Source of the DNA: Jannaschia sp. M317
GTDB taxonomy: Bacteria > Pseudomonadota > Alphaproteobacteria > Rhodobacterales > Rhodobacteraceae
Assembly (NCBI RefSeq): GCF_025141175.1
Contig: NZ_CP081155.1
Coordinates: forward strand, 1,207,001 to 1,271,000
Direction of reading: 5' to 3'
Length of the DNA stretch: 64,000 bases
Part shown: positions 48,484 to 52,662 of the stretch, piece after piece
Numbering within the stretch: position 1 is the first letter of the stretch
How the letters are laid out: each line of letters opens with the position of its first letter
Program-made: the position numbers and the translations under genes
The notes under the pieces: generated by a model
What the model saw: only the letters and a program-made list of their open reading frames with translations
What the model was told of the DNA's origin: nothing
Database searches by the model: none

Positions 48484-49878
48484 TCATCCTGCCCAGGGTC
48501 CGTGCTGATCGGTCTTGCCATTGCTGTGAACAAAGCCGTGCAGGCCAAAATAGTCCCGTTGCGCCTGCACCATGTTCGCGGTTCCGCGCGCCGTGCGCAT
48601 CGCATCGAAGTAGGCCAGACCGGAGGACAGCGCGGGCGTCGGGTGCCCGTGCAACGCCGCCTGGGCCACGACCTGGCGCAGTGCGTCGTGGCTGTCGCGC
48701 ATCAGTTGGGCGAAATGGTCGGTAAACATCAGGTTCGTGCCCGGTGACGCAGCCAGCGCCTGGGCCATGTCGTCCAGCATGGCGGACCGGATGATGCAGC
48801 CCTCGCGCCAGATCTGTGCGATTCGCGCCATGGGCAGGTCCCACCCGAAATCCCGTTGCGCGGCGGACAGCATCTCGAAGCCCTGAGCGTAGCACAGGAT
48901 CTTGCCCGCGATCAGCGCCCGTTCCAGCAGGTCGTGGTTGACCGTCACGGGTTGCGGGGCCGCGCCAAAGATCCGTTCTCCCTCGGCGCGCTCGTCCAAC
49001 CGCGCGGACAGGTTGCGGGCGACGACAGCCGCCTCGATGGCGGGGACAGGGGCCAGGCGGTGCTGGCTTTCGATGGCGGTCCAGCGGCCGGTGCCCTTTT
49101 GCCCGGCGGCGTCCACGATGACCGACAACAAAGGCGCGCCGGTGGCGGTGTCTTGGGCCTGCGCCACGATGCCCGTGATCTCGATCAGGTAGGAGGCGAG
49201 GGTGCCCTCGTTCCAGCGTTCGAACACCTTGCCAATCGCATCGGGGGCCAGCCCCTCACCGTCGCGCAGCAGGCCGTAGACCTCTGCGATCATCTGCATG
49301 TCGGCATATTCGATGCCGTTGTGCACCATCTTGACGAAATGCCCCGCACCGCCGGGGCCCATCAGCGCGGCGCAGGGGTCGCCGTCGTGCTTGGCCGAAA
49401 TGGCAAGCAGAACCTCTTCGACGCGGTCCCAATGGGCCGGATCCCCGCCCCCCATGATCGACGGACCGTGGCGCGCGCCTTCTTCTCCGCCGGACACCCC
49501 GACCCCAAGGAAGGGGCCGCGGTCGTCGTGCACCCGCCGGTCGGTGTCGGAAAACAGGGCGTTGCCGCAGTCCACGATCAGGTCGTCGTCATCCAGCAGG
49601 GGGCGCAGCGCGTCGATCTGATCATCGACCGGCTGGCCTGCGGGCACCATCAGGATGATCGCGCGCGGTTTGGCGATGGCGGCGACGAAGGCCTCCAGGC
49701 TTTCGGTTGCGGTGATGCGCGCGGACAGGTCCCCGGCCGCAGCCGCAAAGTCGCGGGTCACCTGCGTCGTGCGGTTGAAAACCGCGATGTCGAACCCTTT
49801 CTCCGCGATGTTCGACGCCAGTGCCGCCCCCATCGTGCCCAGTCCGATCAAGCCGATCCGTGCGCCTGTGTCCGTCAT
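48484..49878 (-). CDS. gnd: 6-phosphogluconate dehydrogenase, decarboxylating
   Basis: 464 residues. It oxidises 6-phosphogluconate to ribulose 5-phosphate with NADP+ in the oxidative pentose phosphate pathway. N-terminal Rossmann motif GLIGLGTMGAALASNIAE, and the catalytic Lys in GGAGHFVKMVHNGIEYADMQ. The length is typical of the dimeric enzyme. It is convergent with hemC and divergent from the radical-SAM gene, whose control region it faces. Confidence 0.96.
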   Translation of the reverse strand: MTDTGARIGLIGLGTMGAALASNIAEKGFDIAVFNRTTQVTRDFAAAAGDLSARITATESLEAFVAAIAKPRAIILMVPAGQPVDDQIDALRPLLDDDDLIVDCGNALFSDTDRRVHDDRGPFLGVGVSGGEEGARHGPSIMGGGDPAHWDRVEEVLLAISAKHDGDPCAALMGPGGAGHFVKMVHNGIEYADMQMIAEVYGLLRDGEGLAPDAIGKVFERWNEGTLASYLIEITGIVAQAQDTATGAPLLSVIVDAAGQKGTGRWTAIESQHRLAPVPAIEAAVVARNLSARLDERAEGERIFGAAPQPVTVNHDLLERALIAGKILCYAQGFEMLSAAQRDFGWDLPMARIAQIWREGCIIRSAMLDDMAQALAASPGTNLMFTDHFAQLMRDSHDALRQVVAQAALHGHPTPALSSGLAYFDAMRTARGTANMVQAQRDYFGLHGFVHSNGKTDQHGPWAG

Positions 49879-50002: not shown

Positions 50003-50028
50003 GAACGAGTGGGGAACATATACCGAAC
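50003..50028 (+). promoter_or_regulatory. Triple SOS (LexA) half-site array
   Basis: GAAC occurs three times at exact 11-bp intervals: 50003-50006, 50014-50017 and 50025-50028, i.e. GAAC-N7-GAAC-N7-GAAC. The alphaproteobacterial LexA box is GTTC-N7-GTTC, whose complement is GAAC-N7-GAAC, so there are two overlapping boxes. The last half-site ends 2 bp before the start codon, so bound LexA would cover the start region. Confidence 0.8.
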
Positions 50029-50030
50029 GA

Positions 50031-51260
50031 ATGGCAAAAATGACGATCAAAGACAAACTGGCCTTGCTGTCGGATGCGGCGAAATACGATGCGTCTTGCG
50101 CGTCGTCTGGCACATCCACGCGCGGGTCGCGGGATGGCAAGGGGCTGGGGTCCACCACCGGGTCGGGAATTTGCCATGCTTATGCGCCTGACGGGCGCTG
50201 CATCAGCCTGCTGAAGATCCTGATGACGAACTACTGCGTCTATGATTGCGCCTACTGCGTGAACCGCGTGTCCTCCAACGTGCCCCGCGCGCGTTTCACG
50301 GTAGAGGAGGTGGTCTGGCTGACCACGGAATTCTACCGTCGCAATTACATCGAGGGGCTGTTCCTGTCGTCGGGGATCATCAAATCCTCGGACTACACCA
50401 TGGAGGAGATGGTCCGCATCGCGGAAACCCTGCGCAAGGGTGGCTTTCGCGGCTACATCCACCTGAAGACCATCCCCGATGCCAGCCCCGAGTTGATCGA
50501 ACGGGCGGGCCTGGTGGCGGATCGTCTGTCGATCAATATCGAGCTGCCGACAGATGCCAGCGTCAAGGCCTATGCCCCCGAAAAGGACCCGGCGGGCATC
50601 CGGCAGGCCATGGGCAAGGTGCGCCTGACCAAGGAGGATTATTCCGACCGGACCCACACCGGGCGCAGGCGGGGCAATTTCGCGCCCGCCGGGCAATCGA
50701 CGCAGATGATCGTGGGGGCGGATGCCGCCGACGATGCCACGATCCTGGGCAATTCCACCCGGCTCTATTCTTCCTACGGGTTGAAGCGGGTCTATTATTC
50801 CGCGTTTTCGCCCATTCCCGACAGCTCCTCGGTGCTGCCGCTGGTCGATCCGCCCCTGATGCGGGAACACCGGCTGTATCAGGCGGATTGGCTGCTGCGG
50901 TTCTATGACTTCTCGCTCGATGAAATCGTGACGCGGGATGCGGGCGGGATGCTGGACCTGGAGGTGGACCCGAAACTGGCCTGGGCGCTGGCGAACCGGG
51001 ATCGGTTTCCGGTGGATGTGAACCGCGCCCCGAAAGAGGATTTGCTGCGCATCCCCGGCTTTGGCACCAGGATCGTCCAGCGGATCCTGAAGGCCCGGCG
51101 ATCCGGTGCACTGGGGTTGGAGGATATTCGCCGCATGGGCGGGCGGGTCAGGGCGGCGCGCCCCTTTGTCGTGACCCGCGACCATCATCCCGGTGCCCGT
51201 CTGGATCAGGCCGACCTGCGCGCCCGGTTCGTCAAGCCCAAGCAGATGGAGCTGTTCTGA
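50031..51260 (+). CDS. Putative DNA modification/repair radical-SAM protein (UDG-linked)
   Basis: 409 residues. The radical-SAM cluster motif is C-x3-C-x2-C in TNYCVYDCAYCVNR, and the C-terminal domain contains a helix-hairpin-helix (APKEDLLRIPGFGTRIVQRI), a DNA-binding fold. This is the rSAM_link_UDG family, usually found next to a DUF4130/UdgX gene, as here (1 bp apart). The reaction is unknown. The start codon ATG at 50031 has no good ribosome-binding site; ATG at 50040 is an alternative. SOS control is indicated by the LexA array. Confidence 0.88.
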   Translation: MAKMTIKDKLALLSDAAKYDASCASSGTSTRGSRDGKGLGSTTGSGICHAYAPDGRCISLLKILMTNYCVYDCAYCVNRVSSNVPRARFTVEEVVWLTTEFYRRNYIEGLFLSSGIIKSSDYTMEEMVRIAETLRKGGFRGYIHLKTIPDASPELIERAGLVADRLSINIELPTDASVKAYAPEKDPAGIRQAMGKVRLTKEDYSDRTHTGRRRGNFAPAGQSTQMIVGADAADDATILGNSTRLYSSYGLKRVYYSAFSPIPDSSSVLPLVDPPLMREHRLYQADWLLRFYDFSLDEIVTRDAGGMLDLEVDPKLAWALANRDRFPVDVNRAPKEDLLRIPGFGTRIVQRILKARRSGALGLEDIRRMGGRVRAARPFVVTRDHHPGARLDQADLRARFVKPKQMELF

Positions 51261-51261
51261 C

Positions 51262-52662
51262 GTGTTCGCCCCTCGGTTGCCGCGATTGGGGACCCATGCC
51301 GCCTGGCGCGAGGCCGCGCGCGCCTTGGCCACCACCCCGCCCGAGGCGGTCGACTGGGGGTGGCAGGATCGGGGGGCGTCGATGTTCGATGCGCCCTTGC
51401 CGGTGTCCTCGGCGGCATTGTCGGTGCCCAAGGGGTTCGACGCACTGAGCCGGACCTTGATGGCGGAACGGACGGGCGAAGGCTTTGCGGTGTCGCATGC
51501 GCTGCTCCATCGTTTGCAGGCCGAGCGCGGGCTGATGTCGCGTCGCGCCGATCCGTTGGTGGCGCGGGCCGAAAGGGTGGCCAAGGACGTCCGCCGCGAC
51601 ATTCACAAGATGCATGCGTTCCTACGCTTCAAGGAGGTGCCGGGCGATGGCCGCCGCCGCCGCTTTGCCGCCTGGTTCGAGCCGTCCCACCGCATCGAAG
51701 AGACGACGGCCGATTTCTTCGTGAACCGTTTCGGCGATATGGATTGGGTGATCGTCACGCCCGAGGTGACGCTGCGCCATCTGGGCGGGACGCTGGAGAT
51801 GCAGGCCGTTGCCTCCGGCAGGCCGGACGAAAGCGACCCGTTGGAGCAGCTCTGGACGACGTATTATTCCAACATCTTCAATCCTGCGCGGCTGAAGCTG
51901 AACGCGATGCGCGCCGAGATGCCCAAGAAATACTGGAAGAACATGCCCGAAACGGCGGCCATTCCGGGTCTGGTCGCCGAGGCCCGCAAGCGGGTGGAGG
52001 CGATGCAGGCGGCCCCGATGCGCGCCCCTCGAACCGCCGCGCCCCGCCAGATCGCGCCGATTGCCGACGATTTGCCGGGGCTGGCTGTGCGGTTGCAGGC
52101 GTGCACTGCGTGTCCGATCCATTGCGGGGCGACCCAGGCGGTCATGGGCGAGGGCCGCCCGCAGGCGCCAGTGATGATCGTCGGCGAACAACCCGGCGAC
52201 CGGGAGGATCTGGTCGGGCGTCCGTTCGTCGGGCCCGCCGGTCAGCTGTTCGATCAGGTCGCGGCGCGCGCCGGGCTGGATCGCAGCGCCTGTTATGTCA
52301 CCAACGCGGTCAAGCATTTCAAATACATCCAGCGGGGCAAGACACGGCTGCATCAACGTCCCGATGCCGCCGAGATCCGCGCCTGCCGCAGCTGGCTTAT
52401 GCAGGAGATCGCGCTGGTCCGGCCGCGCCTGCTTGTCGCGATGGGGGGCACCGCGGCAGAGGCGTTGACGGGGCGCGGCACAGGCGTCTTGGCCCGGCGC
52501 GGCACGCTGGAGGAGACGCCTTTTGGTTTGCCGGTCTGGATCACGATCCATCCCTCGGCCTTGCTGCGGATGCCCGACGCGACGGCCCGTGCCGATGCGC
52601 GCCGCCAGTTCGAGTCGGATCTGGCTGCCATCCCGGATATGCTTAAAAAACAGGCGGAATGA
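51262..52662 (+). CDS. DUF4130 domain fused to a UdgX-type uracil-DNA glycosylase
   Basis: 466 residues from a GTG 1 bp after the previous stop. The N-terminal ~240 residues are the DUF4130 putative DNA-repair domain (RRDIHKMHAFLRFKEV). The rest is a family-4-like UDG with GEQPGDREDLVGRPFVGPAG and IHPSALLRMPD, and Fe-S cysteines in CTACPIHCGA. UdgX enzymes bind DNA uracil covalently through the His of a KRRIH loop; here the loop reads GKTRLHQRP, with the His kept. Function as a suicide-type uracil binder is inferred. Confidence 0.88.
   Translation: MFAPRLPRLGTHAAWREAARALATTPPEAVDWGWQDRGASMFDAPLPVSSAALSVPKGFDALSRTLMAERTGEGFAVSHALLHRLQAERGLMSRRADPLVARAERVAKDVRRDIHKMHAFLRFKEVPGDGRRRRFAAWFEPSHRIEETTADFFVNRFGDMDWVIVTPEVTLRHLGGTLEMQAVASGRPDESDPLEQLWTTYYSNIFNPARLKLNAMRAEMPKKYWKNMPETAAIPGLVAEARKRVEAMQAAPMRAPRTAAPRQIAPIADDLPGLAVRLQACTACPIHCGATQAVMGEGRPQAPVMIVGEQPGDREDLVGRPFVGPAGQLFDQVAARAGLDRSACYVTNAVKHFKYIQRGKTRLHQRPDAAEIRACRSWLMQEIALVRPRLLVAMGGTAAEALTGRGTGVLARRGTLEETPFGLPVWITIHPSALLRMPDATARADARRQFESDLAAIPDMLKKQAE

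Follow-up and report, generated by a model that had tools for sequence, protein, structure and literature searches.

Three in-phase GAAC half-sites precede a radical-SAM gene in the window (the whole 64-kb stretch of DNA that was analysed). We consider it quite probable that they belong to a sigma70-type, leaderless, LexA-repressed SOS operator-promoter, which would drive an operon coding for a radical-SAM protein (TIGR03916) and a DUF4130/UdgX fusion. The predicted SOS control of this operon is well supported by conservation of the proximal pair of half-sites among orthologs. The third, distal half-site is sporadic, and a special role for it is unproven.

The predicted operator array and the genes behind it

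The earlier note had described three GAAC half-sites that form two overlapping boxes before the radical-SAM start codon, and each of these details proved exact (Table 1). Both spacers are N7, the two boxes have the middle half-site in common, and 2 bp separate the last GAAC from the ATG. The usual ribosome-binding site is indeed missing, as had been remarked, with no Shine-Dalgarno seen at this start; the 15-bp proximal box fills the position expected of one.

The TIGR03916 family of the first gene presumably corresponds to COG4277. The second gene, which begins after a gap of 1 bp and likely belongs to the same operon, codes for a fusion whose DUF4130 half scores 167.7 bits against TIGR03915, above cut-off. 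Its UdgX half scores 291.4 bits against TIGR03914 (cut-off 189.95) and aligns with the solved Uracil DNA glycosylase X 6ail at 9.1e-46. By a simple pattern, a downstream UdgX-type motif is found in 64 of the 78 named ortholog loci whose sequence extends far enough, and is lacking in 14. The histidine of the KRRIH-type loop in UdgX proteins cross-links to DNA. The loop here reads KTRLH, in which the His is retained and the T is replaced by R (17) or Q (1, locus L159) in the 18 genus relatives compared.

Table 1. Features of the predicted operator-promoter and adjacent genes (window positions)
Feature	Position	Strand	Remarks
gnd, 6-phosphogluconate dehydrogenase	48484..49878	-	Divergent neighbour; outside the switch
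Predicted -35 element TTGTAA	49996..50001	+	TTG at -35..-33 frequent among orthologs
Distal (third) GAAC half-site	50003..50006	+	Exact; at N7 in 2/19 genus orthologs and 2/187 proximal-box orthologs
Candidate distal-register LexA box, alternative operator	50003..50017	+	Starts at -28; 36 other orthologs use the distal group (-31..-27) only
Middle GAAC half-site	50014..50017	+	Common to both registers; 1 bp upstream of the -10; GAAC at -17 in the -17 and -28 classes
Proximal LexA box GAACATATACCGAAC, very likely main operator	50014..50028	+	Box start at -22..-16 in 187/243 orthologs, 128 of them at -17
Predicted -10 element TATACC, within the proximal box	50019..50024	+	TATAAT-like letters at -12..-7 in both register classes
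Proximal GAAC half-site	50025..50028	+	Exact
Radical-SAM protein TIGR03916 (rSAM_link_UDG)	50031..51260	+	556.6 bits (cut-off 343.5)
DUF4130 (TIGR03915) - UdgX (TIGR03914) fusion	51262..52662	+	GTG start assumed; PF13566 and PF03167

Conservation of the proximal box among orthologs

The array would not be convincing by its own numbers. GAAC-N7-GAAC pairs occur 3 times in the window against 1.89 expected, which is chance level, and 114 times genome-wide against 71 for the reversed pattern. The exact triple is found once in the 3.94-Mb genome, where 0.43 would be expected by chance from 114 pairs. The proximal site rises above chance because most orthologs have the pair in the corresponding position, which is not so for the third half-site.

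We took 254 ortholog loci from the matches listed (up to 80 of them named), of which 252 were read and 243 distinct upstream regions were kept. Two loci whose N-terminus was unrecognised by the script (L286 and L288), nine duplicates, the broken copy of genome G201 (L160 and L161) and the fragments of genome G147 were dropped. Start codons were set 5-9 codons from a conserved K-L-A motif, blind to the box. An exact direct GAAC-N7-GAAC is present in the last 60-70 bp of 224 of these 243 upstream regions. Twelve others carry the inverted form (GTTC-N7-GTTC), six have one mismatch, and one (L107, from a Polaromonas MAG) has no box. Given that GAAC has a background rate of 0.0039, about 0.2% of upstream regions should contain a box by chance. 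The proximal pair is thus very likely a LexA operator, as judged from its recurrence.

In six orthologs (L098, L217, L218, L222, L245 and L268) the inverted box sits at the unchanged place, at -17 or -16 from the ATG. The radical-SAM gene was found in all 20 genus genomes searched, and in G201 it is broken, lying in pieces with an internal stop on contig C5 (1036165-1036618; L160 and L161).

Predicted membership in the LexA regulon

The genome encodes its own lexA, and the motif precedes this gene (by 35 bp), uvrA (by 80 bp), an ImuA-like gene (24.9 bits, under its cut-off) and a PA0069-family radical-SAM gene. Among the 12 boxes with AT-rich spacers that were opened in this genome, the rest do not clearly precede SOS genes. 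Across the best-scoring lexA loci of the family, 28 upstream regions were read of 30 tried, and the motif is in all 28, as an exact triple in 9 and as a pair in 19. PMC12700426 and PMC9578287 describe the SOS box of Caulobacter with the same half-site and spacing, in the GTTC-N7-GTTC orientation, and PMC8565304 does so for the LexA motif of Alphaproteobacteria. Given the lexA promoters, the other SOS genes and these published motifs, it is highly improbable that the repeat is bound by a regulator other than LexA. The earlier proposal of a LexA-type operator before this gene pair is therefore upheld by the proximal box in most orthologs, the lexA gene in the genome and the motif before other SOS genes.

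Compared with the alphaproteobacterial LexA box (GTTC-N7-GTTC / GAAC-N7-GAAC), the proximal box shows no difference: half-site, spacing, promoter overlap and the repair gene behind are the same. The array differs in its extra third half-site. PMC8565304, citing da Rocha 2008, states that a uracil-DNA-glycosylase repair operon is SOS-regulated in Alphaproteobacteria. The earlier note's view of the radical-SAM/UdgX pair as a DNA-damage system was therefore a correct inference that is not new. The COG1573-COG4277 operon described there resembles the present one in having a UDG-family gene, a two-gene organisation and LexA control, whereas UdgX is fused to DUF4130 here. Our literature search, which left subscription journals mostly outside its scope and so says little about what is in print, found no pairing of UdgX with LexA; within the same scope, the triple string was not found.

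Elsewhere in this genome, a LexA-type box lies 4 to 19 bp before possible starts of a staphylococcal-nuclease-like gene (PF00565; locus L290, 1217-1877, contig C1 near 1774816).

A predicted leaderless promoter

The putative promoter reads TTGTAA-N17-TATACC, and its elements recur at fixed distances from the start codon. When the 126 orthologs whose only box is at -17 are aligned by ATG, TTG appears at -35..-33 in 87, 84 and 83% of sequences, and after a 17-bp spacer the letters at -12..-7 are T99 A98 T60 A41 A54 T56 (%). The 19 orthologs with a box at -28, two triples included, have TTG (89, 89, 84%) at the same positions as the -17 class and T95 A95 T63 A47 T47 T79 (%) at -12..-7. A TTG within -38..-32 is present in 152 of 185 proximal-only orthologs versus 25 of 36 distal-only ones. 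Nine of the 185 proximal-only orthologs have a Shine-Dalgarno-like GGAG, GAGG or AGGA within -17..-4; among the 36 distal-only orthologs, 4 have an SD-like motif.

A start 6-7 bp past the -10 would hit the A of the ATG, and transcription is predicted to begin at or adjoining this position (50031). At the sequence level the site has the features of a leaderless promoter, with a -10 that would put +1 on the AUG, no Shine-Dalgarno and an AUG start. The radical-SAM mRNA is therefore probably leaderless, which would account for the missing ribosome-binding site. This is the best explanation that we have for that absence, and it did not form part of the earlier proposal. There is precedent in S. meliloti, for which PMC3616915 lists 171 start sites of leaderless mRNAs, all at AUG. 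In Caulobacter, the SOS gene CCNA_01391 likewise combines a LexA box with a leaderless start, according to PMC4287350 and PMC12700426; that start is mapped, whereas the one here is predicted.

The layout is not universal, because rhizobial boxes at -21 come with about 15 bp from -35 to -10, and some Bosea orthologs have GGAGG plus a TTG start. In 66 of 185 proximal-only orthologs, moreover, an alternative in-frame start codon occurs shortly upstream, often within the box. Transcription might instead begin further upstream, which would leave the box in a leader that is translated without a Shine-Dalgarno. The frame in this genome is indeed open far upstream, as part of an ORF from 49821. However, the -35 and -10 elements are conserved at a fixed distance from the ATG, and in 79 of 185 proximal-only orthologs an in-frame stop occurs shortly before the ATG, ahead of other starts. 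On balance, an upstream start seems unlikely.

Under the leaderless arrangement, the sigma70-type promoter would start the mRNA at or adjoining the first base of the ATG. LexA bound as a dimer to the proximal box should hide both the -10 element and the start point and thereby block RNA polymerase, and an alternative dimer on the distal-register box, in the spacer from -35 to -10, should block polymerase as well. Upon DNA damage, RecA-driven LexA cleavage would free the promoter.

The third half-site

At N7 upstream of the proximal box, a GAAC is present in 2 of 187 orthologs (0.72 expected, P 0.16). These are the present gene and its counterpart in genome G208 (L144), the only 2 of the 243 orthologs with both registers together. 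They account for 2 of the 19 genus orthologs compared, our own included, and one more (L158) has the extra GAAC at N6. Conservation in close relatives had been named in the earlier note as a check on this half-site, and when run the check went against it: 1 of the 18 other genus orthologs compared carries the third GAAC, which is absent at both N7 and N6 from the nearest relative (L142, 92% identical) and at N7 from 16 others. With counts that lie within chance, we rejected the idea that the operator includes the third half-site as a conserved component. A search for worn remnants was also unproductive, as 3-of-4 matches at offset 11 occur in 12 of 187 orthologs, inside the 0-16 range of offsets 4-49; on the downstream side of distal boxes such remnants number 3 of 38, two of which are the exact triples.

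On these figures, there is about an even chance that the third half-site is a neutral match in a fast-changing promoter spacer and that the proximal box works alone. That reading must contend with a GAAC at N6 in 4 of 187 orthologs (P 0.006), which becomes 6 of 187 for N6 or N7 (P 0.0036, a pairing picked post hoc), with the orthologs that use the distal register alone, and with the frequency of triples before lexA.

The earlier note had also suggested that three sites might allow tighter or cooperative LexA binding. The exact 11-bp phasing does place all three half-sites on one face, and there is a parallel in R. sphaeroides, whose lexA operator GAACN7GAACN7GAAC was reportedly dissected by Tapias, Campoy and Barbe (2000), with a middle motif that is said to be essential and a contribution from either outer one. 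Such an outcome agrees with two overlapping registers. Because the boxes here share their middle half-site, two dimers should not both be fully seated, and two alternative registers are the simpler reading. Moreover, the third site is not conserved at this gene, and about 97% of SOS promoters in Caulobacter have a single LexA box, as reported in PMC12700426. It is thus very unlikely that the three half-sites bind more than one LexA dimer cooperatively and more tightly than a single box would.

Since the two registers exclude each other, the third site would most likely give modest extra occupancy or be neutral, rather than support stacked cooperative binding, and its effect is probably small. 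Our triple and the R. sphaeroides lexA triple are alike in their three N7 half-sites and two overlapping boxes. They differ in the gene concerned and in that the lexA triple is conserved in many genera while this one is sporadic. The triple is real and of a known type, and at this gene it is sporadic.

Exact triples elsewhere in the family

Of the 198 family genomes, 93 contain an exact triple; within the genus, 5 of 20 do. One genome (G023, contig C11 and others) holds 46 mutually similar exact GAAC-N7 triples that have the appearance of a dispersed repeat. When it is left out, the remaining 197 genomes contain 132 triples versus 94 for the reversed control. Fifty triples that were chosen as lexA-like or doubtful, and are not the full list, were joined to lexA positions, and 40 of these 50 lie no more than 250 bp upstream of lexA, a share that is about the whole excess of 38. 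One further triple, in G089, has a LexA frame beside it. We thus rejected the notion that triples are family-wide noise; they are mainly a feature of lexA promoters (at least 40 of 132).

A LexA frame adjoins each of the eight lexA-type triples that were opened, two of which were confirmed by profile. By inspection, the middle half-site in the lexA promoters read is within TAGAAC at the place of the -10, whereas here it is 1 bp upstream of TATACC. The family lexA upstream regions (L192, L325-L353) share TTGACA-N17-TAGAAC, and, besides the 9 with an exact triple, at least two (L328 and L338) have a third GAAC at N6. In the genome studied here, lexA is preceded by a pair, and GATT stands where a third half-site would be.

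Sixteen other triples were opened (five of class 2, seven of class 3 and four from the genus). Twelve of them could be assigned, L302, L304, L314 and L324 being the exceptions. Two precede an ImuB-like Y-family polymerase frame (PF00817, PF11799), L301 precedes a PA0069-family radical-SAM gene, and L303 is the radical-SAM site of G208 itself. Triples with the core GAACATTCATGGAAC were rejected as a further SOS class: in four of the five opened (L313, L315, L316 and L317), GTTC-N7-GTTC-N7-GTTC covers the ATG and the codons next to it in a photolyase-like gene, while the short frame at L314 is another one. For the photolyase-like genes, part of the pattern may simply reflect codon use. The photolyase-like genes score under NCBIfam cut-offs, and PF00875 was matched by L313, the one run against Pfam.

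Four more triples (L318, L319, L320 and L323) come after an apparent recG, recognised by eye, and before a tiny frame. Our own genome has a LexA-type box in the same setting, just past recG and before a tiny frame (locus L294, 1274-1475, contig C1 near 2362073). All five of these frames align; they are 39-56 aa long and end in what looks like one membrane helix, closing with L-x-L-P (LAF in L319). They gave no Pfam or NCBIfam family, apart from one spurious weak match. SidA is a division inhibitor of Caulobacter, and the tiny frame may code for an SOS-induced membrane peptide that is perhaps SidA-like.

Two predicted operator registers over one promoter

Box starts among the orthologs fall into two groups, at -22..-16 (187 of 243) and at -31..-27 (38 of 243), with both triples counted in each. 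None start at -26..-23, and in two orthologs the box is at -43. The commonest starts in the two groups are -17 (128) and -28 (19), which differ by one half-site period; a half-site at -17, beside the -10, belongs to both. With the promoter elements described above, this pattern indicates that the promoter is fixed while the operator moves. The distal box alone occurs in 36 orthologs and in none of the 19 genus orthologs compared.

On a FastTree phylogeny of 151 full-length proteins, the proximal and distal states need 5 changes when triples are scored as proximal. Scoring the distal class versus every other label requires 6, of which starred branches force at least 4. These 5-6 changes imply that the register shift occurred several times. 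The two triples need two changes on the tree; both may come from a single origin.

We tentatively propose a model in which the start codon holds a leaderless SOS promoter in place and the operator moves in steps of one half-site (-17/-6, -28/-17, or the two together), with the half-site beside the -10 kept. The triple could then be a two-register state that permits a one-turn shift with repression intact and raises LexA occupancy meanwhile. We consider this possible, though somewhat against the odds.

Implications for the LexA regulon

The one-turn shift of register over a stationary promoter is the freshest part of the finding. Two registers 11 bp apart, above a promoter that appears unmoved, would make this a clean case of the evolution of a direct-repeat operator. 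The radical-SAM partner is without an assigned chemistry (its model name says 'putative'), and the exact promoter for testing is now named. Conservation across Alphaproteobacteria, rather than a single motif match, places the radical-SAM - DUF4130/UdgX operon in the predicted LexA regulon.
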